Virus record (IMG/VR): IMGVR_UViG_3300034374_002197
Span: 1-29,622 of that record
Direction: 5' to 3' (one strand)
DNA: 29,622 bases
Source of the DNA: a virus
The notes beneath the pieces are model-generated. The model had not been told where the DNA came from. It saw nothing but the letters and a program-made list of their open reading frames with translations, and searched no databases. Each line of letters begins with the position of its first letter. The stretch's first letter is position 1. The position numbers and the translations under genes were made by a program. This document shows, in pieces, positions 6,644-24,941 of this stretch.

Positions 6644-7195
6644 ATGTGGACATATAATGGACGCACAATCAGAGTCGGCAGAAGTTGGGCTGACGATTCT
6701 GGCGTAAAGCATCCAACGAACTGGTCATCTTGGTCAGCAGACGAAAAAGCCGCTAGAGGTCTGGTGTGGAATCAGGACTTACAGCCTGTACCGTTCGACA
6801 ATCGCTTCTACTGGTCAGCAGGAGTTCCAAAGGCATTAGATGATGTCAATGAAGTAGACGAGGACGGCAATCCTGCACTAGATCCTGACGGTGTACAGAT
6901 CGTCACCAAAGGACTCAAGAGCAATGCCATCGCACAGACGAAAGTGACTGCTAGCGGCTTGCTTGCTCCGACTGATTGGATGGTCATCAAGGCGGCAGAG
7001 GTATCGGGATACACTGTCCCTGCTGAAGTAACAACTTATCGTGCGGCAGTGCGTACAGCATCGAATACCATCGAGACTGCAATCACAGGCGCGGCAGATC
7101 ATGCGGCATTTATGGCTCTCTACAACGCTCCTGTGGATGCTGACGGTAACAATGCTGGAAACGCACCGATCAATGACTGGCCGGAGACGATCTAA
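6644..7195 (+). CDS. fibre-cluster accessory protein, function unknown
   Basis: The protein has 183 residues. The N-terminus (MWTYNGRTIRVGRSWADDSGVKHPTNWSSWSADEKAARGL) followed by DNRFYWSAGVPKAL is beta-rich and tryptophan-rich. The C-terminal half (about 85-165) is helical, with ATDWMVIKAAE-like charged stretches, and resembles the helical tails of phage fibre assembly proteins. It ends PINDWPETI. AGGAGA lies in the 15-base gap after the large adhesin gene. Its TAA overlaps the next ATG. Position, size and architecture suggest an assembly chaperone or accessory for the 836-residue adhesin, parallel to the gene at 2942-3292. This is inference. Confidence 0.55.
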   Translation: MWTYNGRTIRVGRSWADDSGVKHPTNWSSWSADEKAARGLVWNQDLQPVPFDNRFYWSAGVPKALDDVNEVDEDGNPALDPDGVQIVTKGLKSNAIAQTKVTASGLLAPTDWMVIKAAEVSGYTVPAEVTTYRAAVRTASNTIETAITGAADHAAFMALYNAPVDADGNNAGNAPINDWPETI

Positions 7196-8253
7196 TGGCG
7201 ATCAGTAAGATTGGATCAGATGCTTTAGAAGCTGGCGCGGTTGATGCCACAGGGGTGTCTGACTCAGCCAACACCTCTACAGGATTCTTTGCTCTTCCAT
7301 CAGGAACTACGGCACAGCGTCCGGGGTCTCCTGCTGATGGTTATGTGCGGTTTAATACATCAACGTCTGAGCCGGAATGGTATGACGAATTTTCAAGCTC
7401 TTGGGTTAATTTTAGTGACGAGCCTAATCGTAGTATCTCGGTAGATTTTTTAGTTGTTGCTGGTGGCGCTTCCGGGGGTAGATATGGCGCTGGCGCTGGC
7501 GGTGGTGGTGCCGGGGGTTATCGTACATCGGTTGGTACTTCTGGTGACAATTCTTCAGCGGAATCAACTTTATCTTTAGCGTTAGACACCTCATATACCG
7601 TTACTGTTGGCGGGGGCGGTGCCGCAAGATCCGGTTCTGACGCAGTCGGAGAAAATGGTACTAATTCTGTATTTTCCACCATTACATCTACTGGTGGCGG
7701 GGGCGGTGGTACTAACGGTACAGGTAACACTGGTGGATCTGGTGGTGGTGCAGGCGGTACTAATACTTCCGGTGCTTCTGGTACGTCTAACCAAGGTGGT
7801 GACGGCGGCGCAGGACACACATCTGCCAATAACGGCGCTGGTGGCGGTGGCGGCGGTGCTGGTGGCAATGGAAGCGCGGGGACAAGTTCAGGCGGTGGTA
7901 ATGGCGGTGCCGGTTTAACAAGCTCTATTGACTCAGTAGCAAGGGCAGGTGGTGGCGGCGGGGGTTGTGTCGCCGCAGATACTCCGGGCACTGCAAGTAG
8001 CGGAGGTGGCGCTGGATCCACAACTGGAACGGCAACTAGCGGAACGACTAACACCGGTGGCGGTGGCGGTGGCGCAGGAGCCGGTGGAGGTACTTCTGGA
8101 GCCGGTGGATCGGGTGTTGTGGTCATTAAGTATTCAGACACAATTAGCGTTTCTAACCCGGGCGGCGGTTTGACGTTTAGCACCGCGTCTTCAGGCGGGA
8201 ATAAGATAACCACATTTACCGCTGGAACTGGCAATATACAGTTTAGCTTGTAG
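7195..8253 (+). CDS. glycine-rich tail adhesin A
   Basis: The protein has 352 residues. Residues 34-55 (LPSGTTAQRPGSPADGYVRFNT) are a short module shared with the gene at 9050. From VDFLVVAGG (about 83) to GGSGVVVIKYS (about 310) the protein is a glycine-rich domain. It has an early YTVTVGGGG strand, then dense runs such as GGGGGGTNGTGNTGGSGGG and NGAGGGGGGAGGNGSAG. Domains of this composition, as in the phage S16 adhesin, fold as polyglycine-II helix sandwiches whose loops bind outer-membrane receptors. That structure is known for S16, not shown here. The ATG overlaps the previous stop. Antisense proline-rich frames opposite this gene are only by-products of glycine codons. Confidence 0.8.
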   Translation: MAISKIGSDALEAGAVDATGVSDSANTSTGFFALPSGTTAQRPGSPADGYVRFNTSTSEPEWYDEFSSSWVNFSDEPNRSISVDFLVVAGGASGGRYGAGAGGGGAGGYRTSVGTSGDNSSAESTLSLALDTSYTVTVGGGGAARSGSDAVGENGTNSVFSTITSTGGGGGGTNGTGNTGGSGGGAGGTNTSGASGTSNQGGDGGAGHTSANNGAGGGGGGAGGNGSAGTSSGGGNGGAGLTSSIDSVARAGGGGGGCVAADTPGTASSGGGAGSTTGTATSGTTNTGGGGGGAGAGGGTSGAGGSGVVVIKYSDTISVSNPGGGLTFSTASSGGNKITTFTAGTGNIQFSL

Positions 8254-8263
8254 GAAAACAGCA

Positions 8264-8635
8264 ATGGCTCACTATGCTTTTTTAGATGAAAACAATGTCG
8301 TAACCGAGGTAATTGCCGGAAATACGGAAGGCGGACTGATTGATTGGGAATCGCACTATGGTGCTTTCCGTGGTCAGGCTTGTAAGCGCACTAGCTACAA
8401 CACGCACGGCGGAATACACGGATCAGGTGGCACACCATTTCGTAAAAATTACGCAGGCATCGGATACACTTATGACGCTACTCGTGATGCGTTCATTCCA
8501 CCACAGCCTTACGCAAGCTGGGCACTGAACGAAACATCGTGCCTCTGGGAAGCACCTGTTGCATACCCTGATGACGGTAATATGTATCGCTGGGACGAAG
8601 ACACAACCAACTGGGTTGAAATCACTGAGGAGTAA
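8264..8635 (+). CDS. small fibre-cluster protein B1
   Basis: The protein has 123 residues. It starts MAHYAFLDENNVVTEVI, then SYNTHGGIH, RKNYAGIGYTYD, FIPPQPYASWALNETSCLWEA and WDEDTTNWVEITEE. This is a widespread small protein of marine phages, including T4-like cyanophages, of unknown function and usually found among tail-fibre genes. Its C-terminal 64 residues differ from the neighbouring paralogue (8648-9046) at only about eight positions, while the N-terminal halves are diverged. GGAAAA lies upstream of the start in the ten-base gap after adhesin A. Confidence 0.7.
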   Translation: MAHYAFLDENNVVTEVIAGNTEGGLIDWESHYGAFRGQACKRTSYNTHGGIHGSGGTPFRKNYAGIGYTYDATRDAFIPPQPYASWALNETSCLWEAPVAYPDDGNMYRWDEDTTNWVEITEE

Positions 8636-8647
8636 AGGAGACAAGCA

Positions 8648-9046
8648 ATGGCACATTTTGCAAAAGTACAAGACGGCATCGTGACTAGGGTCATTGTTGC
8701 CGAACCAGAATTCTTCGACACATTTGTTGATGACTCACCCGGTCGTTGGCTAAAGACCAGCTACAATATGCGCGGCGGTGTTTACTACGATCCCGCAACT
8801 AACCAACCTGCGGCGGATCAATCTGTCATTACAGGGGACGAGGGCCGTGAGCGTAAGAACTACGCTGGTAAGGGTTATACTTATGACTCAACACGCAACG
8901 CATTTATTCCACCACAGCCTTACGCTTCGTGGACTCTGAACGAAACATCATGTCTCTGGGAAGCACCTGTTGCACACCCTGATGACGGCAATCTGTACGA
9001 GTGGGACGAAGACACAACCAACTGGGTTCAAATCACCGAGGAATAA
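8648..9046 (+). CDS. small fibre-cluster protein B2, paralogue of B1
   Basis: The protein has 132 residues. MAHFAKVQDGIVTRVIVAE is the usual N-terminus of this family (closer to typical members than B1), followed by WLKTSYNMRGGVYYD, an extra loop of about nine residues with an acidic GDEGRE, and the same RKNYAG to ITEE C-terminal block as B1. The DNA of the two blocks (8495-8632 and 8906-9043) matches at about 120 of 138 positions by hand count. AAGGAG seven bases upstream is a strong ribosome site. Function is unknown; fibre-associated by context. Confidence 0.7.
   Translation: MAHFAKVQDGIVTRVIVAEPEFFDTFVDDSPGRWLKTSYNMRGGVYYDPATNQPAADQSVITGDEGRERKNYAGKGYTYDSTRNAFIPPQPYASWTLNETSCLWEAPVAHPDDGNLYEWDEDTTNWVQITEE
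8906..9043 (+). repeat. 138-bp direct repeat, copy 2 (copy 1 at 8495-8632)
   Basis: The 3' part of B2 repeats the 3' part of B1 without gaps, from ATTCCACCACAG to the last sense codon. I count about 18 mismatches in 138 bases. Six of these cluster in one place (GCAAGC versus GCTTCG and the next codons), while stretches such as CTCTGGGAAGCACCTGTTGCA and the GGGACGAAGACACAAC block are identical. This is a recent duplication or gene conversion, and a possible recombination site for swapping fibre cassettes. Confidence 0.8.
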
Positions 9047-9049
9047 TCC

Positions 9050-10084
9050 ATGACCAAAGCTCGCGGCCTGTCAAGCATTAGCCCTGATTCAAAAACCGAC
9101 GCGGTTTATTTGCCTGCGGGCACGACTGCTCAACGTCCAAGTTCGCCTGTTGAGGGAATGATACGTCAAAACACTACCGAAAATGTTGTAGAAACCTATA
9201 ACGGTACTGAGTGGGTCACAGTAGGTACGCAAGCAGTTACTTATACTGTTGATGCGTTGCTTGTCGCAGGAGGCGGGGGTGGTGCAGGATCAGGAAGCGG
9301 TGGTGGCGGAGGCGGTGGTGCAGGCGGAATGCGCTCACTTACTGATGAGTCATTATCCCAAGGCACTACATACGTTATTACTGTTGGAGGCGGCGGGGCG
9401 CAAGGAACTGCCGATACCAATACAGCCGCCGGTGATGGCACTAACGGTGAAGACAGTGTTTTTTCAATCTATACCGCTGTAGGAGGCGGAGGCGGTGGTG
9501 CGGGTGGTGCCGCAAGAACCGGTAAAAGTGGTGGATCTGGTGGAGGCGGCGGTTATAGCGCAGGTCTTGGAGGATCAGGTACTGCGGGACAAGGTAATAA
9601 TGGCGGCAATGCTACATCTGGTACTAACGGTGGCGGTGCAGGCGGTGGTGCCGGAGCAGTAGGCGGAGGAAACCCGGCAGGTACGGCAGGTTCTACTGGC
9701 GGCATTGGAGCTATCTCCACAATTATCTCGTCTACTATTGCAACAGCACAATCCGTAGGAGAAGTCTCAGGATCTGATGTTTACTACGCCGGAGGCGGCG
9801 GTGGTGCTTCTAACGGTAGTGTTGGCCCCGGAGGCTTAGGCGGTGGCGGTAATGCAAGTACAGTATCCGGAGGTACGGCATCGACTGCGGGTTCTCCTAA
9901 CACTGGCGGTGGCGGCGGAGCCGCTTACGATGGTCCAGCCGCATCTGCGGGTGGTTCAGGTGTAGTTATTTTAAGAATGCTCACAGCAAACTACTCAGGC
10001 GCAGTTACAGGATCTCCGACAGTAGTCACGGACGGGGCGGATACAATTTTGATCTACAAAGACTCCGGTACATACATAGCTTAA
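9050..10084 (+). CDS. glycine-rich tail adhesin A', paralogue of 7195-8253
   Basis: The protein has 344 residues. Residues 21-42 (LPAGTTAQRPSSPVEGMIRQNT) repeat the linker module of adhesin A. VDALLVAGGGGGAG (about 66) opens a glycine-rich domain with a TYVITVGGGGAQG strand and many GGGG runs, closing at GGSGVVILRML (about 305). Compared with adhesin A, the glycine-rich loops differ throughout, and a non-glycine segment (AISTIISSTIATAQSVGEV, about 220-238) interrupts the array. The fold expected from family knowledge is a polyglycine-II sandwich with receptor-binding loops. The ATG follows the previous stop by three bases, and a 15-base gap with AAAGGA leads to the next block. Confidence 0.8.
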   Translation: MTKARGLSSISPDSKTDAVYLPAGTTAQRPSSPVEGMIRQNTTENVVETYNGTEWVTVGTQAVTYTVDALLVAGGGGGAGSGSGGGGGGGAGGMRSLTDESLSQGTTYVITVGGGGAQGTADTNTAAGDGTNGEDSVFSIYTAVGGGGGGAGGAARTGKSGGSGGGGGYSAGLGGSGTAGQGNNGGNATSGTNGGGAGGGAGAVGGGNPAGTAGSTGGIGAISTIISSTIATAQSVGEVSGSDVYYAGGGGGASNGSVGPGGLGGGGNASTVSGGTASTAGSPNTGGGGGAAYDGPAASAGGSGVVILRMLTANYSGAVTGSPTVVTDGADTILIYKDSGTYIA

Positions 10085-12508: not shown

Positions 12509-12738
12509 GCGATGATAACGTATTGATAATGGCTGACGGCACGCGTTGGAAACCTTCAACTAGCAGAGACATTGTTAGTTGCGTTTCTTGCGATAACGAA
12601 GTTGATACCCCAGAAGAAATTTTGTCTTACCCTTCGGGGAACTGCCCGGATTGCGGCAACCCTTGGACGGGGTCCGAGAAACGCAGTACAATCATACAGG
12701 TAACAGTACCTGAACAACTGGGCGGCGGAGCAGGCTAA
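12505..12738 (+). CDS. small zinc-ribbon protein
   Basis: The protein has 77 residues. It has two CxxC pairs, Cys26-Val-Ser-Cys29 and Cys47-Pro-Asp-Cys50, 17 residues apart, the spacing of a zinc ribbon. The N-terminus (NVLIMADGTRWKPSTS) is a short beta segment and the C-terminus is a strand plus a glycine tail. It starts by ATGA overlap and ends by TAATG overlap inside the virion operon. Zinc binding is inferred from the cysteine pattern. Whether it is a virion component or a regulator made late is unknown. Confidence 0.65.
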   Translation: MSDDNVLIMADGTRWKPSTSRDIVSCVSCDNEVDTPEEILSYPSGNCPDCGNPWTGSEKRSTIIQVTVPEQLGGGAG

Positions 12739-14534
12739 TGGCACAGGCACAACTTCAAGAAGAACTGATCCCAGCAGGCGGCATCGCAGACTTTGTAATG
12801 TCTGATGCAGAGATCGCGGCTCTCGAAGCAGAAGAAGCCCGTGAAGAGTTTGGTGATTCGGGGATTGCGCGTTTTGAACCAATTGCAAAACGCATGGCAT
12901 CTTATGGCCGTTATGGCGATGATCAAGTCGTTCACGCTGAAACAGGCGAGCTTCTCGTACCACGGGCCTTATTAGAACAAAGCCCTGAACTTAAAGAATC
13001 TATTTTCAGCCACCTGCGCGATATGGGGATTGAAGATCCTGATCGGTATGTGGTTGGATCGAGTGCAAACTCCATTAACCCAGACACGGGTATGCCCGAA
13101 TTCTTTTTGAAGAAAATTTTCCGCGGCGTTAGAAAAACTGTTTCTAACGTTGCTAAAGGCGTTAGCAAAGCGGTAAGCAAAGTCGGTAAGGTACTGAAAA
13201 AAGTTGCCCCGGTTGTTCTTCCAATCGCGTTAGCGATGACCCCGCTTGGTGCAATTTATGGCGCGGCCCTCGGATCAGGTATTGGTACCTTGATTCAAGG
13301 CGGTAATATTAAAGACGCTTTGAAATCAGCTTTGATTTCTGGAGTTTCTGGCGCCGTGTTCTCCGGTGTTTCTTCCAAGCTTGGCGGCGGTACATTTACT
13401 GAGGGCATTAAAGAAGCGGCGGCAAACCCAATGGGCCGTTTGAGTCAGACAGGAAAGGCGCTAGGTGCTGGAGATCCGTTCAGAAGCTTCGCTCCAACGG
13501 GCGATCAAATTGCTGATGATATTGCCGCGGGCCGTGCTGATGCAGGCGTGAGCGAAGCTCAAGAGCTTGCGGGAACTACGCCAATGGAAGAATATACACA
13601 AGCGGTTGATATTCGAGGTAAAGCTCCGTCTTTAGATCCAGACGTTGCAATGATGAACGACCCTTATTTTCAAGACGCTTCTGGCAACTTTGATCCAACC
13701 GGACGAAATTACACGGGCTTCAAGGGAGCTAGGAGTGCTAGCACGGATGGGGTAGGTTACGACTACCGCTTCGGTGGAACAGGCGGACCAACTCCGGATC
13801 GTGTAGCCAGCTTTGCAGAACAGGCGGGTAGCACTGCGGGTAGCACTGGAGCAGAAACAAGTCTCCTTGACACGGCTAAAGGGTATGGTCAAAAGGCATT
13901 AGACTTTTTTGATCCGCGTGTTCCCGACACAGTTCCCGGACTTGAAGCGGAAGTGGCTCGATTAAAAGGGTTAAATTATACGGATGATGTTGCTTATAAA
14001 ATAGCTCAAGAAAATATTGCAAAAGCGACTCCAAGTATGATCTCCCGTTATGCCCCAATCGCAGGTCTAGCCACTTTAGGCGCGACAGCCGGTGGATTCT
14101 TTGAAACGCCAGAAGAAGAAACAAACGAATTAGCCGAAGAGTTCCAACAAACCGGGGTTGATCTTGTCGCACAAAACCCAGAGCAATTTATGCTCGCGGG
14201 CCGCGACCCACGGTACTCGCAAGGTCAGTATGTTGTTGGAAGTCAGTATGGCTTGACCCCACAACAAACGCTCTTTAGTAACCCGTTTATGCGTTACCAA
14301 GCTCCGCAAATGCGGGCGGCGGCAGGCGGCGAAGTGTATCCACGTCGTAATGGCGGCATCATGCCAAACGAAGGCATCCCAGACCAAGACAGCGTTCGAG
14401 CATTGCTGATGCCGGGTGAGTTTGTCATGACCAAGGACGCGGTTCGCGGTCTAGGTGGCGGGAACTTAAATCAAGGCATCAACAACATGTATTCGATGAT
14501 GCGTAACCTTGAAACACGAGGACAGGTGGCGTAA
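12738..14534 (+). CDS. membrane-active virion protein candidate with cationic helix and hydrophobic core
   Basis: The protein has 598 residues. Residues 20-115 are acidic and include RYGDDQVVHAETGELLVPRALLE and HLRDMGIEDPDRYVVG. Residues 122-155 (FFLKKIFRGVRKTVSNVAKG and onward) are a strongly cationic amphipathic stretch with nine lysines. Residues 157-187 (APVVLPIALAMTPLGAIYGAAL...) and 195-213 are Gly/Ala-rich hydrophobic helices. A disordered middle follows. The C-terminus has RRNGGIMPNEGIPDQDSV, then LLMPGEFVMTKDAVRGLGGG, a motif shared by several marine phage structural proteins. The cationic helix plus hydrophobic hairpin suggests membrane insertion during DNA delivery. This is inference; the family has no function known to me. 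Both ends overlap neighbouring genes (TAATG). Confidence 0.65.
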   Translation: MAQAQLQEELIPAGGIADFVMSDAEIAALEAEEAREEFGDSGIARFEPIAKRMASYGRYGDDQVVHAETGELLVPRALLEQSPELKESIFSHLRDMGIEDPDRYVVGSSANSINPDTGMPEFFLKKIFRGVRKTVSNVAKGVSKAVSKVGKVLKKVAPVVLPIALAMTPLGAIYGAALGSGIGTLIQGGNIKDALKSALISGVSGAVFSGVSSKLGGGTFTEGIKEAAANPMGRLSQTGKALGAGDPFRSFAPTGDQIADDIAAGRADAGVSEAQELAGTTPMEEYTQAVDIRGKAPSLDPDVAMMNDPYFQDASGNFDPTGRNYTGFKGARSASTDGVGYDYRFGGTGGPTPDRVASFAEQAGSTAGSTGAETSLLDTAKGYGQKALDFFDPRVPDTVPGLEAEVARLKGLNYTDDVAYKIAQENIAKATPSMISRYAPIAGLATLGATAGGFFETPEEETNELAEEFQQTGVDLVAQNPEQFMLAGRDPRYSQGQYVVGSQYGLTPQQTLFSNPFMRYQAPQMRAAAGGEVYPRRNGGIMPNEGIPDQDSVRALLMPGEFVMTKDAVRGLGGGNLNQGINNMYSMMRNLETRGQVA

Positions 14535-15391
14535 TGGCAACTACTACTGAAATTGTTCGCGAAGCCCCCGAGATTGAAGCCTATAAACTAGGGCTTCTAA
14601 AATCCGCAAAAGATCTTGCGGATAGGCCGATTACGCTTCCCGTTCAGCAAATTGCTGAACAATCAGCCCTTCAGCAACGCGCCGCGGACCTCGCATCAGC
14701 GGGCATTGGGTCCTTTATGCCGTACTTAACAGAAGGCGGCTATACGATGGGCGATGCTTATCAGTCGTTAGCTGGCCCTCAACAAGTAACGGGTGAAATG
14801 ATTGAACGCTACATGAATCCTTTTCAGGATGCAGTTCAAGCTGAAATCAACCGGTCTTTTGATATTCAACAAAACCAAGCGGCAGGGCAGGCCGTAGGGG
14901 CAGGAGCTTTTGGCGGATCCCGAGCGCAGGTAGCGCAAAACGAGATTGACCGCAATCGTGCCGCGGCTCTTGCTCAATCACAAGCGCAAAACTTTATGCA
15001 GGCACAACAAGCGGCCGCAAATGAATTAGCCCGAGTTCAGCAACAAGGCGAACTATTGGGCACATTAGGCTTACGTCAGGCAAGCCTTGGCGAGCTTGGC
15101 CAAAAAATGGGTCAGCAAGAATCTCAATTCTTATTCGATATTGGTCAGCGTCAACAAGCACAACAGCAGGCAGAACTGGAAGCACAGCGTCAAAGCGACC
15201 TTGCACAGTTGTATGAGCCATACCAAAGATTCTCATATTTATCAGATATTTATAAAGGTGCACCATCGACGCAACAATCTATTGCGTCCGCAACAGCACC
15301 AAGTGTTTCACCGGCTCAACAATACCTCGGGCTAGGTATTGCAGGGCTTTCCGCCGCGGCAGGCGCAAGTAAAGCAGGACTATTCGGATGA
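14534..15391 (+). CDS. gp14-like internal virion / ejection protein candidate
   Basis: The protein has 285 residues. Residues 85-145 contain ERYMNPFQDAVQAEINRSFD and AVGAGAFGGSRAQVAQNEIDRN, signatures of a common marine phage virion protein. Residues 140-225 are an Ala/Gln-rich helical coiled coil. The C-terminus (PAQQYLGLGIAGLSAAAGASKAGLFG) is a glycine/alanine helix that could enter a membrane. Size and position (after the tail protein, before ~670- and ~1400-residue proteins) parallel T7 gp14, an ejected pore protein. That link rests on order and composition, not on sequence similarity. It overlaps the next gene by ATGA. Confidence 0.6.
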   Translation: MATTTEIVREAPEIEAYKLGLLKSAKDLADRPITLPVQQIAEQSALQQRAADLASAGIGSFMPYLTEGGYTMGDAYQSLAGPQQVTGEMIERYMNPFQDAVQAEINRSFDIQQNQAAGQAVGAGAFGGSRAQVAQNEIDRNRAAALAQSQAQNFMQAQQAAANELARVQQQGELLGTLGLRQASLGELGQKMGQQESQFLFDIGQRQQAQQQAELEAQRQSDLAQLYEPYQRFSYLSDIYKGAPSTQQSIASATAPSVSPAQQYLGLGIAGLSAAAGASKAGLFG

Positions 15392-16071
15392 TGAACAGAA
15401 GCGTAATGCAACGGCAAATGTTTAGGTACGGCGGCCCCGTCAAGATGATGGAACGAGGCGGTGCGCCTACAGGCCAGATGGCGACCTTGGTTAACCCACA
15501 AAGCGGCGAGCGCGTCACGTTGGACATGGCCAACGAAGCAGATGTTCAAATGATGGATCAGCTTGTTTCCGCAGGGTTTGTTATGGATACTCCTCAACAA
15601 GCACCTGTCGGTATGCAAATGGGCGGTGATCCGATGATGGCGGCAATGGCACAGCCTGCACCTGTCGATCAAGGTGTTGCGTCAATGATGCCTCAAGAAG
15701 CAATGCCCGCGGAACCTGCAATGGACATGGCGAGTATGGGCGTAGGCGAAGTTGATCCTGCAACAATTGAACAAATGTTGGGCGAAGTTGCTCCAGAAAT
15801 CGGTAATCCAGAAGAAGCCGAAGATTTTGAAACGATGATGAATTCTGTTCGCGGCGATGAAGCGTCTGTCGAACAACGTCGGATGGAGCTTGCTTCTTTA
15901 GTCGGGGAAGAAGACGCTATGCAAACTCCCGAATCTGTTCTTGCCTTAGTACAGCCTGTTGTACAAATGTCCTTGGTTGACGAAGGTATTGGTGGACTCG
16001 CAGAACAAGAGATGCAACAACCCGTAGAAGGCAACATGGCCGGCGGGATTATGTCAATGATGGGAGGCTAA
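15388..16071 (+). CDS. methionine-rich acidic virion-operon protein
   Basis: The protein has 227 residues, 33 of them methionine by my count (about 15 percent), often as MM pairs (FRYGGPVKMMERGG, GGDPMMAAMA, ETMMNS, SMMGG). It also has long Pro/Gln/Ala-rich and acidic stretches. The RYGGPV and MMERGG segments resemble short motifs in other marine phage structural proteins. It is probably mostly disordered, with helices at 130-170 and 185-215. ATGA overlaps at the start, and the next ATG follows the stop by one base. A scaffold or assembly role, or a minor virion component, is possible; nothing identifies which. Confidence 0.6.
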   Translation: MMNRSVMQRQMFRYGGPVKMMERGGAPTGQMATLVNPQSGERVTLDMANEADVQMMDQLVSAGFVMDTPQQAPVGMQMGGDPMMAAMAQPAPVDQGVASMMPQEAMPAEPAMDMASMGVGEVDPATIEQMLGEVAPEIGNPEEAEDFETMMNSVRGDEASVEQRRMELASLVGEEDAMQTPESVLALVQPVVQMSLVDEGIGGLAEQEMQQPVEGNMAGGIMSMMGG

Positions 16072-16072
16072 C

Positions 16073-18076
16073 ATGTCTCAGCCCGTAGATCGTTTCGGTA
16101 TTGGATCTTTACCTTTTTATAACGAGCCTATCGAACAAGTAATAGGAAGACCAATAGGTCTTACTCCTGCGGAGTCGCTAGGGGCTTCTCTTCGTGGTAC
16201 GGCAAAGGCTCAACGCTCTATTCAAGAGCCGGTGGTTGCTCCTCCCGCTCCACAGCCTGACCGGTTGACTCAAATTTATGAGCAAAAAGTTCCTTTGTAC
16301 GAAAGAATCATGGGAACCGATCAGGCCAGCCGTTTAAAAGAGCAGAAAGATTTAACGCAGGCACAAATGCTGTTTGACATTGCAAACACCGCGCTTGCGT
16401 TTAGTACAGCCGGGTCACGGCCGGGTATGTCTCCTGCGGAACGCTTGGCGGAAGCGTCACAGCAAACGCAATTATTCCCAACGATTTCTGCTCGCGCACA
16501 AAAACAACTTGAATCTAAGCAAGCTGTTGAAGGTGAAACTAAGAAAGCACAACTTGCGGCATTGCAGTCTGCCGAAGCGCAATTTACGGCTGAAGCAAAA
16601 GCACAAGAAGACATTAAGTTACAAAAATTAAAAGGCAGTCAGGACTTTGCAAAGATCAAACTTGAAGATCGGCTAGGATCTGCCTCTAATCAAGCATTGG
16701 AGAAATTGAAACAAACAGGGCGGATAGAACTACAAGATGTTAAAAGCATTGACGATTTAGGTTTAGAAGATCGTCGTCAAGTTAACCGCGTCGCTTTAGA
16801 AAATGTTCAGCAAACAAACCGAACATCCATCGAAAGATTAAGACAAGACGGTAGTGAAGCGAGCCTTGTTCTTGCCGATCAATTAGAAAAAGAAAACATT
16901 CAGATCAAAGCCGATCTTGAACTGAATCGCATGGGCGTGGCTAACGGCTACGACATTGAGCAAATTGAACTAAAGCATGAGCAGGCGCAAGAGCTTCTAA
17001 ATTCAGAACAAACCTTGAAACGCGAAATGCAAAGCCTTGAGCTTGAGCGTAAAGACCGAGGACTTCAACTTGAAGAATTAAGAACGTTAGCTAACGCCTC
17101 ACAAGGTGAGGAAAAGCTACGGCTTGAAAGACAAGCGCAAGAACTTGAGATTCAAAACCAAGCGTTTGATCAAGCATATAAGATCCGGAAGCTAGAAATA
17201 GACGCGGCGGCCGCAAGACTTGGACGTCTTGGCGGTAGTATCGAAGCACGGATCACGACTCTTATTTCAGATCCAGCAACTATCAAAGCTTATGCCGACG
17301 GTACTTTAGGCCCAGAAGAGACGTTAGAGTTAAACCAGTCGATTGCTTATTACAACAATCCTAAGCAGGTTTGGGACGAACAAAACAAGGTTTATAAGCT
17401 CTCCCCCGGAAATCCGTTGTCTAACGAATTGATCGGAGCGATTAGAAAGCGTCGTGATGGCGATCTTTCTGTGCCAAACGTTAAAGTGGATGACTTATTA
17501 ACGCCTTCAGATCCGGGATCTATTGCCAGTCAACGGCAAAAACGCCGAAATGAGATGACCAGTTCAATTACGAAGGGTCTTAAAGATCCGGCCGCGGCCT
17601 TTGGTTCAGACGCCTTGGCTAAAAATCTCGTAAACAACCTTGTTGAAGGTATAAGTTTTGGTGCAATCGGAGCACCCTTCACGCCTGAAAAAGACGCGAT
17701 CACTGCCGCAACAGCACTTAACACACGATATATTCAACTCCTACAGGATGCCGCTGAGTTGAGAGATAGCGTAGCGCAGTTAGAGTTACTTAAAAAGCTC
17801 ACTGCAAATCCGGCAAGTTTCTTCGTTGGAGATGATGCCGCGGCATCAAAGATAAGACAACTGATTGCTATCGCAGACGATTCTATCAATTTGTTAGAAA
17901 TCAGTTCTCAAGACTATCCCGCGGACAGCAAACGGTATTCGGAAGTTCAAGAAAAAATAGATAAACTGTATCAAATCAGACAGGGCTACCAAGTTTTCCA
18001 AAAAGCGTATGACATAAAAAATGCTCCGAAGGCAGGTGCCGGTGGTTTCCAACGTTTGTTTAAAGAAGAAGAGTAA
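16073..18076 (+). CDS. long coiled-coil ejection protein candidate (gp15-like)
   Basis: The protein has 667 residues. The N-terminus (RFGIGSLPFYNEPIEQVIGRPIGLTP) is conserved-looking. Residues 130-390 form a very long charged coiled coil rich in Glu, Lys, Gln and Leu (QEDIKLQKLKGSQDF, ERLRQDGSEASL, LERQAQELEIQNQ). Residues 400-667 are mixed helical (ITTLISDPATIKAYADGTL, YYNNPKQVWDEQNKVYKL). T7 gp15 (747 residues, helical) occupies the same slot between gp14 and gp16 and forms part of the ejection channel. The parallel is by size, order and helical content. No enzymatic motif was seen. Confidence 0.6.
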   Translation: MSQPVDRFGIGSLPFYNEPIEQVIGRPIGLTPAESLGASLRGTAKAQRSIQEPVVAPPAPQPDRLTQIYEQKVPLYERIMGTDQASRLKEQKDLTQAQMLFDIANTALAFSTAGSRPGMSPAERLAEASQQTQLFPTISARAQKQLESKQAVEGETKKAQLAALQSAEAQFTAEAKAQEDIKLQKLKGSQDFAKIKLEDRLGSASNQALEKLKQTGRIELQDVKSIDDLGLEDRRQVNRVALENVQQTNRTSIERLRQDGSEASLVLADQLEKENIQIKADLELNRMGVANGYDIEQIELKHEQAQELLNSEQTLKREMQSLELERKDRGLQLEELRTLANASQGEEKLRLERQAQELEIQNQAFDQAYKIRKLEIDAAAARLGRLGGSIEARITTLISDPATIKAYADGTLGPEETLELNQSIAYYNNPKQVWDEQNKVYKLSPGNPLSNELIGAIRKRRDGDLSVPNVKVDDLLTPSDPGSIASQRQKRRNEMTSSITKGLKDPAAAFGSDALAKNLVNNLVEGISFGAIGAPFTPEKDAITAATALNTRYIQLLQDAAELRDSVAQLELLKKLTANPASFFVGDDAAASKIRQLIAIADDSINLLEISSQDYPADSKRYSEVQEKIDKLYQIRQGYQVFQKAYDIKNAPKAGAGGFQRLFKEEE

Positions 18077-18085
18077 GGAAAGGGT

Positions 18086-21000
18086 ATGACAGAAGCTGAA
18101 CAAGCTGGGGTGGTGGTTGAAATCAATCCCGATCTCCCGGTTCAACAAAGCAATCCTTCCGCTGGAATTCCGGGGATTAGTGAACCGGTAATTAATCCGG
18201 TCACGTTAACTAACGATCAGGTTAGAGAATTTGCTGATGCTTATGGCGAAGGGTACGCGGAAGTTCTTGCTCGTCAGATTATTCAAGAGCAACAATTAGA
18301 TCATCCGGAACTTGATTACGATACGCTAGCCGACGGCACTAACCCGATTTTTGACCGTATTGCAGAATATGCTGATAAACCCCCTGCTGAACGTGCGCTT
18401 TATACTCCTAGCCTTGTTATTTCTTCTTTTGCAACGGATCCCGAAGGCAATCCTTTATCGGAAGGAACCCTGACAGATTTTGCGAAAGGGGCCGCTCGTG
18501 AAGCGCCTAGTGCTATAGCTAGTGCCTATGCGGGTTTTAAAACGGGTCAGAAAGTTTTACAAGCAGGGGCCGGTAAAATGGTTCCGCAAGTGCTTTACCC
18601 TGCCGCGGCGGTAGCCGGATTAGGTTCTTCTGTTTTAACTTATTTAGGTGTTGATTTAACGCGTAGTTACTTGGCCGGTCCAGAAGACGTAATGACTCCG
18701 GGCGCGCTTAAAAACTATGAAATGGGTCGAACTTTGATGGGCAACCTTGCTTGGTTGCCTTATCCGTTTATGACCGCTGTTAAACCGGTGACCGCGGCTC
18801 AAGATTATGTTCGTAAATTGCTGACAGATCAGGTTCCTGTAGGTCCTTTAACCAAGGACGCGCTTTCAACATTGAACAAACGCGGGTTGGAAAAAACCGT
18901 TAAATCAATTAAAGGGGATCAATTTGTCCCTGTCCCCCGGTCTGCGAAAATGGCCGCAGGATTAGAGAAAGGATTAACTTCGTTTGGTCAAACGGCGCGC
19001 ACAAAACCAAAAACGACGTTAGGCGTCGAATCTTTGCCCATTGCTGGATCTACTATTGGGGCGGGCTACGCTCAAGAGTCTGATCCAAATGATCCTGCAA
19101 CTCGAATTGGTTACGAAACGGTAGGAGCCGTTGCTCCCACTCTTCTCGGGGCAACTATAGTTCCTAAATTAGTGGGTCTTGCCCCGGACATTAAGCAGGT
19201 ATATACCAATATTCGAGACAAGGGCTTTAAACAAACGGGTAAAGAGCTTGCAGAAAAAATTGGCGGCCGTCGTGAACGTAAGGCAATTGAGCAAATCTTA
19301 GAAGTTTTAGAAACTTACGGAGAAGATATCGATGAGGTAATCGCTCGGCTATCTTCCGACGATCTTTCTCAGGTCATGTACGATGAGAGCGGTAAGAAGA
19401 TTAAGCTAACTGCTGGAGCCAAGTCTGGAAGTCCCGGATTGCTTGCAGTAGAAGCGGCGCTTGAACAAATTAACTCGAAAATTGGTGAAACAAGAAACGA
19501 AGCCAATCGACAAGCTTTAATGGCGCTTCAGAACACGATTTATGCTCTGGCTATTTCAAAGGATTCCGACGCGTTACAACTTGCGGGTCAGCTTGCAAAA
19601 GAGGCTTTTGATGAATCGCTTAAATATAAAGTAGACCGAGCGCAAAGAAACTTAGTCCAAGCTTACAACAAGTTAATCATGGGCGCTCCCGAAGAAGAGG
19701 CCCGAAAAAGAACGCGAGAGTTGTCTGTAAAATTGTTTGAAGTTGTGGGCGTTCAGTTGGATGCGGCCCGCGCAAAAGAAAGACAGCTTTGGCAGGCCGT
19801 GCCAAACACGTCTTTAACGCAGTTTGCTGATGCCGATGGTAATGTTTCAGACATCCCCGGATTTATTGCACGGTGGTCAGACTTGACTGCAAAAGGTGCA
19901 ATTGAGTTTGAACAAGAAGCGTTAACAGAAGGCGGTCTTCGTTGGATAGACAATTGGGTTCGTCGAAGAGCCCGAGATTACGGATTTGAATTTGTAGATC
20001 CATTAGCGGATGGAGCTACGGACGGGGCACAAGCCGCTACACGTCAAGCCGCAGATGCAGGGCCTTTGTCCGGATTAGGTAAAGAAAAAACTAAACTTTA
20101 TCAGCCCGCATTAAACATGATGCCTGATCGGGGAGATGACCCTTCCGGATTTAAAGTTTTCCAAAGGAAAGGGGAAGAGGGCGGATTTGTCACAACCGTT
20201 GTTGACTCTATGGGCAACAAGGTGGAGTTACGACTAGACCCTTCGGATAGGATAACTCCGTATACGGCAACAATTATTAACGGCACCGGTCCAGACGCTT
20301 TTCGAGCAGGAGCTACATCTAGCACGGTACCCTTAGCCGGACCAAACAATGTGCAAGAAGCCGTGGCGATGACACGGGTTCGCATGTCTTCCGAAGGCGA
20401 TTTTAACTTTGCCCCAACGTCAACCGTTGACGAAGTTTCAGGAGCGTCTGACGAAGTTGCACAGGAGACAGCCGAAGTTGCCGCAGAAGGAACAGAACGT
20501 CTTCGTCAGTTTGATGTAACTGCGCGACCAAAAGAAGGTTTAACGCTACAAGAGCTTCAATCAGCACGGTCCTCGGCCCTTGCTCGTGGAAGAAAATTGG
20601 CCGCATCTGGTGATGTGGATGAAGCGCGAATTGTTTTTGAGTTTGCTGATGCGTTACTTGAGGACATGAACAGCATTTCTGCCACCGAAGCTGGTGCGGC
20701 ATATAACATTGCTAGATCGTATTCTCGGGCTTTGAACGATACGTTTACCCGTAGTTATGCGGGAGAAGCATTAAAGAAATCTCCGTCAGGTGCTTATCGC
20801 GGAGCCCCGGAACTTATGTGGCAGAAGACGGGCGCGGGTACAGAAGACGCTACAACTCTGCGATTAGAGCAAATACTAGACATTCCTAAATTTGCTTTAG
20901 CAAACAACGTTGGAAAACAACGATTGTCTGACCCCTTGACTGGGGCTGAAATTAGTTTTGACCCTAAAGCGGCTCAAGCTTCAACAGAAATGGCTATCGA

Positions 21001-22297
21001 AAGTCTCTTACGCGACGCTCATTTTAGTGTAGGCCGAAATACGGACGGTAGTTTTAACGAAGGTCAATTCCAAAAATGGATGAGACAGCATGAACAAATA
21101 TTGTCTCAATTTCCCGGACTATATCGTGACTTGCAAAATGTCGAGCGTAGAGCGGCCTTGTTAGATGGTAGACGTCTTTCACAGAAAGAGCAGACCGCCA
21201 AAGTAAAAAGTTTGATTACTTTCATGGATCTTTTGCCAGCGGGTATTTATGGCGAAGGGACAGGAGTTACCAATCCTGCGATTGCCATAGAGCGCGCAAT
21301 GAAAGATAAAAAGAATCGTCTTCCTAACATGCTCAGATTACTGAGCTACGCGGAAAACGCGCCAGAAAAAATACGCGAATCTGCATTACGCGGATATAAA
21401 AACGCAGTAATTGAATGGGCTTTAACGGAATCCGGCTCAAGTGGCGGAATGATTAATTTCAAAGTTCTTTACAATAAGCTGTTTGTTCCGCCAGAAATTG
21501 GCGTTAAAGAGGGTGTAGCGCCTCGATTTACCGTTCCTTTAATAGACTTACTTGTTCAAAACAAAGCGATGCCTCAATCCGAAGCAGACCGCTTACGCAA
21601 ATTTGTTACGAACGGCGTTAAATTTGAGGCCGGTATGTCAGAAGGCAAAGACATCGCAGAACTTACAAAGAAAATGAACGCCGGTTTGGCTGTATGGTTC
21701 AAGATTTCTGGTTCTGCGGCCGGTACGCGTGTATATAGCTTGTTGACTGGCGGCCAAGGTGGACCGGGTTCGATTACCGCGGCAGGCATTGGTTCTAAAG
21801 CAGTTTCAGATCTTGTAGATAGATTGCCGGAAGCTCTTGCCGGAGATGTCATGCACAAAATTATGACGGACCCTGACTTGTTAGCTCTGTTACTTCGCGA
21901 ATATAAACCCGATTCTAAAGAAGGAATACGAATTGCGGGATTGTTAGAAGCTAAGTTAATGGACTACGGAATGATCGTTCCGCGCCGTGCAACGCGGACA
22001 ATTCCACGCGAAGCAACGCGCGATGAACAAGATCCAACCAGATCCGATCCCGCAGACCTTCCTATTTCCCCGCTTCAGTTGTTACCTCAAAGGCCGCAGG
22101 ATAGGCCGGCACCTTCGATATTGCCTCAATATCAGCCGCTTTCTCAAGCACGGCCCGCGGCTCCCGCTCCTGTTGCACAGGCCCCCGCACCACCACAAGG
22201 CGGAGCAAATCCACAGCAACGTCAGCAGTTAGCGGCGATGTTCCCTAACGATCCGATCTTGGGAGCGGCCGGCGGCATAGGAACCTTGTTCTCGTGA
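18086..22297 (+). CDS. giant internal virion / ejection protein (gp16-like)
   Basis: The protein has 1403 residues, close to T7 gp16 (1318) and last in the block like gp16. The N-terminal region has DQVREFADAYGEGYAEVLARQI. Hydrophobic segments lie at about 165-190 (MVPQVLYPAAAVAGLGSSV) and 342-368. Residues 380-560 are charged helices, 610-830 are mixed and 830-1330 largely helical. The C-terminal 80 residues are Pro/Gln-rich (PLQLLPQRPQDRPAPSILP) and end in QLAAMFPNDPILG, a tail motif seen in marine phage virion proteins. I found no transglycosylase or other catalytic motif. GGAAAGG precedes the start. The stop overlaps the acyltransferase gene by four bases, which makes this protein a prime candidate substrate. 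Function is inferred from context. Confidence 0.6.
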   Translation: MTEAEQAGVVVEINPDLPVQQSNPSAGIPGISEPVINPVTLTNDQVREFADAYGEGYAEVLARQIIQEQQLDHPELDYDTLADGTNPIFDRIAEYADKPPAERALYTPSLVISSFATDPEGNPLSEGTLTDFAKGAAREAPSAIASAYAGFKTGQKVLQAGAGKMVPQVLYPAAAVAGLGSSVLTYLGVDLTRSYLAGPEDVMTPGALKNYEMGRTLMGNLAWLPYPFMTAVKPVTAAQDYVRKLLTDQVPVGPLTKDALSTLNKRGLEKTVKSIKGDQFVPVPRSAKMAAGLEKGLTSFGQTARTKPKTTLGVESLPIAGSTIGAGYAQESDPNDPATRIGYETVGAVAPTLLGATIVPKLVGLAPDIKQVYTNIRDKGFKQTGKELAEKIGGRRERKAIEQILEVLETYGEDIDEVIARLSSDDLSQVMYDESGKKIKLTAGAKSGSPGLLAVEAALEQINSKIGETRNEANRQALMALQNTIYALAISKDSDALQLAGQLAKEAFDESLKYKVDRAQRNLVQAYNKLIMGAPEEEARKRTRELSVKLFEVVGVQLDAARAKERQLWQAVPNTSLTQFADADGNVSDIPGFIARWSDLTAKGAIEFEQEALTEGGLRWIDNWVRRRARDYGFEFVDPLADGATDGAQAATRQAADAGPLSGLGKEKTKLYQPALNMMPDRGDDPSGFKVFQRKGEEGGFVTTVVDSMGNKVELRLDPSDRITPYTATIINGTGPDAFRAGATSSTVPLAGPNNVQEAVAMTRVRMSSEGDFNFAPTSTVDEVSGASDEVAQETAEVAAEGTERLRQFDVTARPKEGLTLQELQSARSSALARGRKLAASGDVDEARIVFEFADALLEDMNSISATEAGAAYNIARSYSRALNDTFTRSYAGEALKKSPSGAYRGAPELMWQKTGAGTEDATTLRLEQILDIPKFALANNVGKQRLSDPLTGAEISFDPKAAQASTEMAIESLLRDAHFSVGRNTDGSFNEGQFQKWMRQHEQILSQFPGLYRDLQNVERRAALLDGRRLSQKEQTAKVKSLITFMDLLPAGIYGEGTGVTNPAIAIERAMKDKKNRLPNMLRLLSYAENAPEKIRESALRGYKNAVIEWALTESGSSGGMINFKVLYNKLFVPPEIGVKEGVAPRFTVPLIDLLVQNKAMPQSEADRLRKFVTNGVKFEAGMSEGKDIAELTKKMNAGLAVWFKISGSAAGTRVYSLLTGGQGGPGSITAAGIGSKAVSDLVDRLPEALAGDVMHKIMTDPDLLALLLREYKPDSKEGIRIAGLLEAKLMDYGMIVPRRATRTIPREATRDEQDPTRSDPADLPISPLQLLPQRPQDRPAPSILPQYQPLSQARPAAPAPVAQAPAPPQGGANPQQRQQLAAMFPNDPILGAAGGIGTLFS

Positions 22298-22728
22298 ACG
22301 AACTCGGACTGGCAGTCAGCTTGATGATGCGGTCCGACTTCCATCGCCCGTGGTTTATTTCTGATCTGGAAGACTGGATAACTCCTGCGATTGAAAACAA
22401 CAGGATTCAGTTTTTCTACGACGGTGAGGAGCCAATAGGCTTCTTTACCTACACGTTTTTAACGGAGTGTACAGAGCTTGGGTATCTGACAAAAACAGAT
22501 AAGTTGCAACCAAGCGACTGGCAAACCGGACCAGAGGATGGCCGTTTATACGCCATCGACTTTATTGCGTTTAAAAATGTGAGACAATGTGTAAAGGATG
22601 CAGGCAAGACTTTGCAGGCCCAATATGGGACAGTCAAAGGCGAATGTCATTTTTTCCGGTACGCAAAAGACCGCTTGGGACGCATAGCAAAGAGACGAGA
22701 TGAATTATGTTTGAAGATGGCATCGTAA
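22294..22728 (+). CDS. HlyC-type toxin-activating lysine acyltransferase homologue
   Basis: The protein has 144 residues and uses a GTG start in a GTGA overlap. From memory of E. coli HlyC (about 170 residues), the alignment is continuous: LGLAVSLMMRSDFHRPW with LGHVSWLWASSPLHRNW; ITPAIENNRIQFFYDGEEPIG with the HlyC VLPAI and RDNYPVA segment; GYLTKTDKLQPSDWQTG with KYLNDVTSLVAEDWTSG; and RLYAIDFIA with KWFIDWIA. The catalytic His23 and Asp92 of HlyC correspond to His17 and Asp89. HlyC moves a fatty acyl group from acyl-ACP to internal lysines of pro-haemolysin and activates it. No RTX toxin or calcium-binding repeats occur here, so the substrate is probably a phage protein, perhaps an ejection protein encoded just upstream. 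The activity is inferred. Confidence 0.8.
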   Translation: MNELGLAVSLMMRSDFHRPWFISDLEDWITPAIENNRIQFFYDGEEPIGFFTYTFLTECTELGYLTKTDKLQPSDWQTGPEDGRLYAIDFIAFKNVRQCVKDAGKTLQAQYGTVKGECHFFRYAKDRLGRIAKRRDELCLKMAS

Positions 22729-23429
22729 GAAAAAAACAAATCGGTTTTGATCCAGAGACGTCCATGTACTGCTTCGGTGGTGGTGGCGGTGGAAATAACT
22801 CCACTAGCGATAGCGCGTATTCAAATCAGCAAACAGGGCAGGGATCGCGGACCACGCAACCCGGACCTAATACGCGTACAGATAGCCGTGGAAACACCGT
22901 GAACTTCAACACGACGCCTGCTACGGTAACAAGCACTCCTAACTATACAAAAACGCTACCTAACGGCGTTGTTGTCGAAGATTTTTCGCGTCCGTTTGCA
23001 GGGCAGGTCAACCTATCTAACCGCGGTACTCCTGAAGTAACAGACTTATCTACACAACGCTCGGCTTTTGCATCGGCGCCAGTTACGCCCACGACACCAA
23101 TGGGTGGTCTTTACGACAATCTAGCGATCAATATGCCAAACGTGACTGTTCCAAACGTCGATGATTTGACTCCGCAAGAAAGAAGATTAATGGATTCCAT
23201 CAATACGCCCATGGGTAATCCAACAACTCCTCAAGAAGCCATGGAACAAGCTTTAGGTGCCGGCCAGTTTGGTGATGGCCGCGTAGGTCTTGGCGGTGGA
23301 TTCTCTATGGGTAAGGTCCCCGGAGGTTTCGGCTTTCAGTTTGATAGGGCTTTCGCACAAGGCGGCCCTGTGACCGCGGGCATCGGATCACTGGGCTTGC
23401 AGATGCGGCCTAGATCAACCAAGTCTTAG
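22707..23429 (+). CDS. glycine/proline/threonine-rich structural-type protein
   Basis: The protein has 240 residues. The first ATG (22707) overlaps the acyltransferase gene by 22 bases. A second in-frame ATG at 22764 begins MYCFGGGGGGNN, the usual N-terminus (MCFGGG-type) of a class of marine phage virion proteins, so the real start may be 22764. Neither has a strong ribosome site. The middle is low complexity Thr/Asn/Pro (TTQPGPNTRTDSRGN, APVTPTTPMGG), and the C-terminus is glycine-rich with RAFAQGGPVTAGIGSLGL. The role is unknown; it is the last gene of the virion block. Its 3' end overlaps the opposite-strand helicase by 20 bases. Confidence 0.6.
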   Translation: MFEDGIVRKKQIGFDPETSMYCFGGGGGGNNSTSDSAYSNQQTGQGSRTTQPGPNTRTDSRGNTVNFNTTPATVTSTPNYTKTLPNGVVVEDFSRPFAGQVNLSNRGTPEVTDLSTQRSAFASAPVTPTTPMGGLYDNLAINMPNVTVPNVDDLTPQERRLMDSINTPMGNPTTPQEAMEQALGAGQFGDGRVGLGGGFSMGKVPGGFGFQFDRAFAQGGPVTAGIGSLGLQMRPRSTKS

Positions 23430-24864
23430 TATCTTCACCTAAGACCTGACCTGCGATATCAATCTTGTCTCGTAAAGCACCGAGGATTTTTTCATCTACG
23501 GTGTTTGGCGTGACAATATCAATGTAAGTGACGTTCTTTTCTTGCCCAATGCGGTGAGCGCGATCTTCTGACTGCAAGCGTATCTCTAAGTCGTAACCGT
23601 TATTGTAGTAGATCATAGTACCTGCTTCGGTCAGGGTAATGCCGTAGCCCCCTGTGCGGGGTTGGCCAACAAAGAATCGTAGCTCGCTGTTAGGATCTTG
23701 GAACGTTTCAACAATCTCTTGCCGTTCATCCTGCGGCGTCTCGCCAAAGTAAATGCGGGACGAGCCTTCGCCATACTTCTTGGTTAGCTCTGAATAAATA
23801 ATCTTCAGATCATGCGTAAAGGTTGCCCATATAATGATCTTGCCAGAAGTTTCTTCAATAATATCAAGCAGTTCTGACAAACGATTGCTCTTTAAAGTAT
23901 GCAAATCACCGGCATCGTCAGGAAGATGTCCACAACAAATTTGCTGTAATCGCATAATTTGGGTTAATACCGACGCAGTTGTGGATAACTCTCCAGACTC
24001 CAGCTTTGCCAAAGCAAGTTTCTGCATTTGTTTGTAGGCTTTGGCTTGCTCATCGGTCAGGCTGACGTTGCGCCGCATGTACACTTTATCTGGCAAATCC
24101 AGACAGTCTGACTTCAGTACGCGATTGCTGAACTTATCGAGTTTTTCGTTTAGCTCATCCAGACGACGGTAGCCGGTGATCTCATTAAAGCTTTTGTGAC
24201 CCATCGTGCGCTTCTGTACAACGGCGTAACGGTTCTGGTAGCCGTAGTACGAGTTAATACCAAGCGCCTTGGGGGACAGGAACGCGCACTGGCTAAACAA
24301 ATCCATCGGGGACTTTGTAATAGGAGAACCTGTGAGGATGCGACGGTACTTGCTGACCTTCAACAGTTCTACAATGTTCGCGGTCCGCTGTGCTTTTCTG
24401 TTCTTAATCGTCGTCGATTCATCAACAATCACTAAATTATCAGGATTCTTTTTGCAGAATTCATACGCGGCTCGCGTACCCCGTGGGGTAGAAAACGCCT
24501 CAACGTTCATCACAAAAATTTTAAGCCCTTCAAAGGCTTCGTAGACTAACTTGACTAGCTCGTCCTGATAACTCTTGGCACCAGAAGGCGTCCAACGGAC
24601 GACCTGCGTTGCAATGCGCTCAGGCAAATGGGCTTCTAATTCTTTGCGAACCCAGTTATCGTAGACGCCCTTCGGAGCAATGATGAGCGCCGCGTCGATA
24701 TGACCTTTTTCATACAACATACCCATCGTATCAATTGTAACTTTCGACTTACCCGTTCCCATCTCCATGAACAGCGCATAGTATTCCGCGGCCCACGAGT
24801 CGCGTAGCGCGTTAAGCTGATGATCATACGGCTTAGTCTTAAATTCATAGTTTTCAAAATTCAT
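23410..24864 (-). CDS. SNF2-type (SF2) DNA helicase/translocase
   Basis: The protein has 484 residues from the ATG at 24862-24864. That start has GGGGA seven bases upstream and lies just after a promoter candidate. The frame stays open to 24924, but those starts fall inside the promoter. Motifs: Q-like YDHQ (12-15), Walker A MGTGKS (35-40), IIAPKGVYDNW (61-71), DEST box (148-151), LTGSP (177-181), motif V GGYGITLTEAGTMIYYN (405-421) and motif VI QSEDRAHRIGQ (431-441). These are the Snf2/RapA-group motifs. Phage members are thought to act in replication, recombination or strand switching; the exact job is unknown. It is the only gene on this strand, convergent with the virion block and divergent from the replication operon. 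Confidence 0.92.
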   Translation of the reverse strand: MNFENYEFKTKPYDHQLNALRDSWAAEYYALFMEMGTGKSKVTIDTMGMLYEKGHIDAALIIAPKGVYDNWVRKELEAHLPERIATQVVRWTPSGAKSYQDELVKLVYEAFEGLKIFVMNVEAFSTPRGTRAAYEFCKKNPDNLVIVDESTTIKNRKAQRTANIVELLKVSKYRRILTGSPITKSPMDLFSQCAFLSPKALGINSYYGYQNRYAVVQKRTMGHKSFNEITGYRRLDELNEKLDKFSNRVLKSDCLDLPDKVYMRRNVSLTDEQAKAYKQMQKLALAKLESGELSTTASVLTQIMRLQQICCGHLPDDAGDLHTLKSNRLSELLDIIEETSGKIIIWATFTHDLKIIYSELTKKYGEGSSRIYFGETPQDERQEIVETFQDPNSELRFFVGQPRTGGYGITLTEAGTMIYYNNGYDLEIRLQSEDRAHRIGQEKNVTYIDIVTPNTVDEKILGALRDKIDIAGQVLGEDTKTWLI

Positions 24865-24876
24865 GTCACTTTCCCC

Positions 24877-24905
24877 TTGACTCTTGCTAATCATAGGATT
24901 ATATA
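24877..24905 (+). promoter_or_regulatory. sigma70-type promoter candidate for the replication operon
   Basis: TTGACT (24877-24882, five of six matches), a 17-base spacer, then TATATA (24900-24905, four of six) lie about 50 bases before the ATG at 24954. It overlaps the minus-strand promoter almost completely, so the two may compete or share a regulator. Just downstream is a short dyad, AAGGC (24916-24920) and GCCTT (24930-24934). Confidence 0.4.
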
Positions 24906-24917
24906 TAGAAATGTCAA
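24890..24917 (-). promoter_or_regulatory. sigma70-type promoter candidate for the SNF2 helicase
   Basis: Read on the minus strand: TTGACA (complement of 24912-24917), a 16-base spacer, then TATGAT (complement of 24890-24895, one mismatch to TATAAT). Transcription would begin near 24883, leaving a short leader with GGGGA before the ATG at 24864. This supports the shorter start of the helicase. Predicted by motif only. Confidence 0.55.
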
Positions 24918-24941
24918 GGCCCAAACGGTGCCTTTAATAAC

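Follow-up and report, generated by a model that had tools for sequence, protein, structure and literature searches.

A phage HlyC-family gene with an intact His/Asp dyad and its pairing with a CFGG-leader protein gene in virion operons

The stretch of DNA analyzed here, referred to as the window, is a 29.6-kb phage fragment (positions 1 to 29,622 of the IMG/VR record IMGVR_UViG_3300034374_002197). Its late operon leads from tail-fibre-like genes to five ejection-type genes on the plus strand (12738–22297), which encode proteins of 598, 285, 227, 667, and 1403 residues, followed on the same strand by a 144-aa HlyC ORF (22294–22728) and a 240-aa ORF (22707–23429). The operon is bounded by a convergent SNF2-type helicase gene on the minus strand (23410–24924), whose L142 homologue matches PF00176 and which we used as the marker gene for finding relatives of the window phage. 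The 598-aa protein (12738–14534) has PHROG tape-measure and endolysin matches, the 285-aa protein (14534–15391) matches the DNA ejection protein family phrog_4287 with an E-value of 4e-11, and the 227-aa (15388–16071) and 667-aa (16073–18076) proteins were placed in the ejection operon by synteny with relatives. The giant 1403-aa protein (18086–22297) is related to a protein of phage DSL-LC04 named 'DNA transfer protein', and this relationship, together with the phrog_4287 member in the same operon, bears out its initial annotation as an ejection-type protein. Short terminal motifs (GIGSL, FPND, and FAxGGxV) are common to several ejection-operon proteins of the window (14534–23429) and of its relatives, with the C-terminus of the giant and the 240-aa protein among the carriers; the giant's conserved C-terminal tail (FPND...GIGTL, 22144–22297), recognized by DNA identity and the shared motif, contains no lysine. 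In the tail-fibre-like region, positions 7195–10084 hold a similar Gly-rich pair (352 and 344 aa) and a near-identical small pair (123 and 132 aa), which suggests a tandem duplication.

The HlyC gene begins with a GTG codon and overlaps the end of the 1403-aa ORF by exactly 4 nt (GTGA), as originally described. HlyC-type enzymes are used by bacteria to attach fatty acids to toxins. In profile searches, PF02794 was the sole family matching the 144-aa protein, with 59.8 bits against a cut-off of 25 and an E-value of 3.2e-16, in agreement with the initial assignment to the HlyC family. The end-to-end alignment with HlyC claimed at that stage holds for the fold and not for the sequence, where the match is confined to the first two thirds of the protein (residues 4–101 on positions 2–97 of the 127-position profile). 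A phmmer comparison with ApxC (PDB 4whn) gave an E-value of 5.8e-5 with the catalytic His and Asp aligned. As a fold predicted from the single sequence was poor (pLDDT 48), we used instead an AlphaFold model built from an alignment of 35 phage relatives (pLDDT 84.3). Below an E-value of 1e-3, this model matched only three chains of 4whn in the PDB (3.9e-8 to 4.8e-7), the best match spanning 132 alignment columns for the 144 residues of the protein, and the next match was a GNAT at 1.3e-2. With the ApxC chains as the top three matches, the predicted fold corresponds to the toxin-activating acyltransferase (TAAT) variant of the GNAT fold, whereas the GNAT families themselves gave no Pfam match and GNAT structures scored at E-values of 1e-2 or higher.

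The codons of the catalytic residues that had been proposed, His17 (22342–22344) and Asp89 (22558–22560), both align with their ApxC counterparts. Ser14 (22333–22335) lies three residues ahead of His17, the same spacing as in ApxC, and is kept in all intact-dyad phage homologues covering the region; we take it to be the counterpart of the Ser found necessary in HlyC by mutagenesis. Ser, His, and Asp are intact in every CFGG-paired homologue (defined below) that covers the region, and all three have counterparts that are required in HlyC, ApxC, and CdiC. The His/Asp dyad of HlyC-type acyltransferases has been described previously (PMC8510554). Compared with the homologue in locus L005, the window gene has a dN/dS of about 0.05 at a dS of about 0.94, and it is under strong purifying selection. 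Family, fold, dyad, and gene position thus support the view that an intact HlyC-type enzyme is encoded inside a virion/ejection operon, and the sequence and the model point to a catalytically intact-looking TAAT-type acyltransferase of the GNAT fold, whose activity we infer.

The RTX repeat family PF00353 was found in none of 19 HlyC-bearing records, including a 60-kb record with an identical region, so no RTX pro-toxin gene is linked to the window HlyC, just as first reported; at the bacterial yardstick loci L124 and L125, a calcium-binding protein gene does adjoin the HlyC-type gene. No CdiA-like gene was seen in the annotated window, where the neighbours of HlyC are phage late genes. Bacterial genomes scanned with the window HlyC protein and with A5 yielded no relatives, and we therefore make no prophage or host assignment.

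The 240-aa gene downstream overlaps HlyC by 22 nt and encodes a Gly-rich protein, beginning with MFEDGIVRKKQIGFDPETSMYCFGGGGGG, for which Pfam and PHROG searches returned no match. Its N-terminus consists of a 21-aa leader, MFEDGIVRKKQIGFDPETSMY (22707–22769, plus strand), followed by a CFGGGGGG motif (22770–22793, plus strand). Because the motif is coded past the HlyC stop codon, the overlap of the reading frames does not account for its conservation. A scan of IMG/VR using aligned intact HlyC proteins as the query gave 39 judgeable loci including the window, which are mostly metagenome contigs with many near-duplicates. In all 39, the ORF immediately downstream of the intact-dyad HlyC shares 4 to 74 nt with it and encodes a CFGG(D/G)GG-type N-terminus in which 16 to 45 leader residues come before the motif; the window itself conforms to this arrangement. 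Two of these loci, L228 (CFLGDGGES) and L239 (CFGGPSDSDTGG), fall short of the glycine-count rule but are visibly variants of the motif and were counted. The Cys is replaced by Val in the L219 type and by Leu in L210. No lysine occurs in the leader at L238, L239, L241, or the L288 type, which excludes a lysine of the leader as an acceptor common to all loci. Under the strict form of the motif, 31 N-termini were found among 871 ORFs of the HlyC loci, every one of them in the gene directly after HlyC, and none among the 1298 ORFs examined in 76 relatives that lack HlyC.

The pairing was also recovered from the other side, using a DNA pattern for CFGGDGG without any use of HlyC, which hit at least 80 loci. 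Among the 80 matches listed, 26 have an HlyC ORF, in each case overlapping the CFGGDGG ORF that directly follows it, although this count is not fully independent of the forward one because the two scans partly hit the same contigs. Further leader-type ORFs among the matches listed (L259, L270, and L287) begin at contig ends, and the other matches listed probably have no such leader or are chance reading frames. The HlyC–CFGG gene pairing is thus reciprocal and near-exclusive, with overlap, in virion operons. Across both scans, the paired HlyC proteins form 8 clusters at 50% identity and the bodies of the downstream proteins form 11 clusters without detectable similarity to one another. The pair occurs after the giant ejection gene, after the portal gene (L283), between terminase and portal (L274), before terminase (L239), and before the head-tail adaptor region (L291). 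Judged by gene position and the shared tail motifs, the CFGG proteins are putative virion members. L320 (2944–4190) encodes a 154-aa GNAT-looking protein, unconfirmed by searches, followed by a protein starting MCFGGDGG, and L248 (3–1263) has small proteins in tandem, with the N-termini MCFF and MCFGGDGG, beside a 556-aa gene that may be a portal gene.

Cultured phages show that the position upstream of such a protein can be occupied by different families. In CRP-235, a cultured Roseobacter phage of the HMO-2011 type (PMC9038755), gp30 is an intact-dyad HlyC (PF02794, E-value 1.6e-15) encoded directly before gp29, which starts MGGGGGD and thus keeps the Gly-rich N-terminus without the leader and CF. 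In CRP-738 (gp29), CRP-3 (gp28), and CRP-212 (gp27), an unrelated protein of approximately 150 aa, labelled 'putative acyltransferase' by the depositor in CRP-738, precedes a homologue of CRP-235 gp29 whose leader ends in VFKGGGG, VFGGGG, or AFGGGG. A homologue of this slot family, HTVC023P gp80, lies ahead of a DNA ejection protein homologue with the N-terminus MSFIFGGGGGG. The slot family has no detectable homology to HlyC and no Pfam match above cut-off, and neither its acyltransferase label nor its membership in the GNATs gained support from PF00583, PDB, and Pfam searches. T7 gp13–gp14 was considered as a pair of the same kind and dropped for want of profile support. In these HMO-2011-type phages, homologous bodies of the downstream protein come with N-terminal leaders that vary with the slot enzyme, as would be the case for an enzyme acting on the N-terminus.

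In the hlyCA operon, the gene of the enzyme comes before that of its substrate. Because of this gene order and the precedent of CdiC (PMC8510554), we propose that the two genes form a cassette in virion/ejection operons, with HlyC as the enzyme that acylates the CFGG-leader protein, a reading to which we give a probability of roughly 0.5. In this proposal, HlyC would recognize the downstream Gly-rich protein by its N-terminal leader and CFGG(D/G)GG motif and move a fatty acyl chain onto it from host acyl-ACP, and the lipidated, flexible N-terminus would help a virion or ejection component to anchor in or cross the host envelope, much as CdiA acylated by CdiC is anchored in the outer membrane. 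Several observations speak against it: some leaders have no lysine, the Cys is replaced in L210 and the L219 type, CRP-235 gp29 has neither leader nor CF, the CFGG proteins gave no family match, and host proteins can be the target of Rac, a phage acetyltransferase likewise encoded by a gene overlapping a structural one (PMC7552054). A broader version, which we put forward only tentatively and hold to be considerably less probable, is that tailed phages possess a general lipid-maturation module, in which an acyltransferase of the HlyC type or of an unrelated family is encoded before a virion protein with a hydrophobic-Phe-Gly-Gly-Gly leader, with the leader guiding acylation to the motif or its vicinity; removal of the leader might expose the Cys.

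Instead of an enzyme, HlyC could be a non-catalytic chaperone or docking partner of the CFGG-leader protein, which we regard as unlikely. The pelagiphages HTVC112P, 103P, 026P, 111P, 115P, and 104P (L008–L013) encode HlyC-like proteins in which the catalytic His is replaced by Tyr or Trp and the catalytic Asp is sometimes Glu, and yet these are conserved beside genes with unusual N-termini; the next gene often has a Lys-rich or hydrophobic N-terminus, as in the central tail fibre J of HTVC112P. The family can evidently persist without the His, so a non-catalytic role of the pair is conceivable. On the other hand, a pure chaperone would need none of the three residues that all CFGG-paired members covering the region retain. 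Substitution of the His/Asp pair in homologues, named in the initial annotation as a finding that would count against its proposal, is seen in pelagiphages and not in the window phage's own clade. In L202, a His-less HlyC-like gene (19572–20000) stands at the 5' end of an ejection operon; the intact HlyC of the window stands at the 3' end of the same operon type.

It is less probable still that HlyC targets host proteins or lipids during infection, for takeover or exclusion. The precedent is Rac (LUZ19 gp28), a phage N-acetyltransferase that acts on host proteins (PMC7552054). The HlyC-like genes of HTVC103P (L009, 9458–9907) and HTVC104P (L013, 9830–10279) also lie in the early region near a gene for an ssDNA-binding protein and outside the virion module, although in HTVC115P, whose gene content is similar, the gene is inside the virion module. 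Against a host target stand the exclusive pairing with CFGG genes across lineages, the swapping of another family into the same slot, and the terminal location of HlyC in a late virion operon.

The initial annotation had favored the upstream 1403-aa ejection protein as the substrate, with its acylation allowing insertion into the host envelope; this is probably wrong, and we consider it slightly more doubtful than a host target. The idea has some appeal, as ejection proteins must cross the host envelope, shifting from soluble to membrane-inserted. The two genes are also tightly joined, with a 4-nt overlap in 19 of the 30 loci that have the giant and a 1-nt overlap or a 1–3-nt gap in the rest, and T7 gp14 forms an outer-membrane pore (PMC8954989). 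Nevertheless, the giant was rejected as the most likely substrate on three grounds. First, the two proteins have diverged to very different extents: in L004/L016, HlyC is 99.3% identical to that of the window and the giant 29% identical, and with the same contrast in L005 and L006, giants of 29–34% identity stand beside HlyC proteins of 92–99% identity overall. Second, no conserved lysine column was found in the giants of five HlyC-positive phages, in an alignment whose quality is limiting at such divergence. Third, the co-occurrence anticipated for HlyC and the giant breaks down in both directions, as the HlyC–CFGG pair exists without the giant gene in L238, L239, L241, L274, L283, L291, and L301, whereas the relatives found through the helicase retain the giant and only a few of them carry HlyC. 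The exclusive neighbour of HlyC is instead the CFGG-leader protein. Another candidate acceptor, K241 (SDIYKGAP) of the 285-aa ejection protein, is Lys in 5 of 5 HlyC-positive phages and a K/R mix elsewhere, and was set aside as too weak.

Comparison of the window with L016 over 22144–23429 shows HlyC as an island of 92–97% DNA identity, preceded by the diverged giant, with identity climbing again from the giant tail (22144) on through HlyC, and followed by a replaced body, a pattern that suggests recombination with a conserved cassette boundary. That HlyC is a bacterial passenger gene with a role unconnected to its neighbours would fit its absence from most phages of the same group and is very improbable given the dN/dS and the strict two-way coupling with the CFGG gene.

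The literature available to us, the coverage of which is incomplete, contained no account of the function of a phage HlyC or of a phage fatty-acylating a protein of its particle. The cassette touches on the open question of how short-tailed phages breach two membranes, and the acylation proposed here is directly testable because the strict enzyme–leader pair is present in several lineages and a related pair in the cultured CRP-235. The CFGG-leader proteins, previously undescribed, gain a defined partner, and the possible substrate range of the TAAT family becomes wider. If the general lipid-maturation module exists, it would be a viral counterpart of lipoprotein maturation through which ejected proteins engage the host envelope.

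The window protein resembles the TAAT enzymes HlyC and ApxC (PF02794) in family, fold, His/Asp dyad, the Ser before the His, and a gene placed before that of its partner. It differs from them in being shorter (144 aa), in its encoding in virion operons, in the lack of RTX repeats in the 19 records, and in its partner, a Gly-rich phage protein. The pelagiphage HlyC-like proteins share PF02794, and their genes often belong to the virion module, where a tail or virion gene follows immediately, but the next gene has no CFGG leader and the dyad is altered; they carry the annotation 'toxin-activating lysine-acyltransferase', which thus includes proteins without the catalytic His. Rac is likewise a phage acyltransferase with a gene that overlaps a structural one, but Rac is a GNAT acting on host factors, whereas the window protein matches TAAT and GNATs only at E-values of 1e-2 or above. 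The CRP-738 slot family, although unrelated to HlyC by homology, has a similar size (approximately 150 aa), lies directly upstream of a hydrophobic-F-GGGG N-terminus, and occupies the HlyC slot of CRP-235. CdiC of class IV CDI, an HlyC relative, attaches 3-hydroxydecanoate to a lysine of CdiA, which gives a firmer hold on the target outer membrane (PMC8510554). CdiA is a bacterial filamentous toxin, whereas the window partner is a phage late-operon protein with a putative acylation; in both cases, an HlyC-family gene stands upstream of the gene of a non-RTX partner, and the lipid may serve as an anchor in a bacterial outer membrane.
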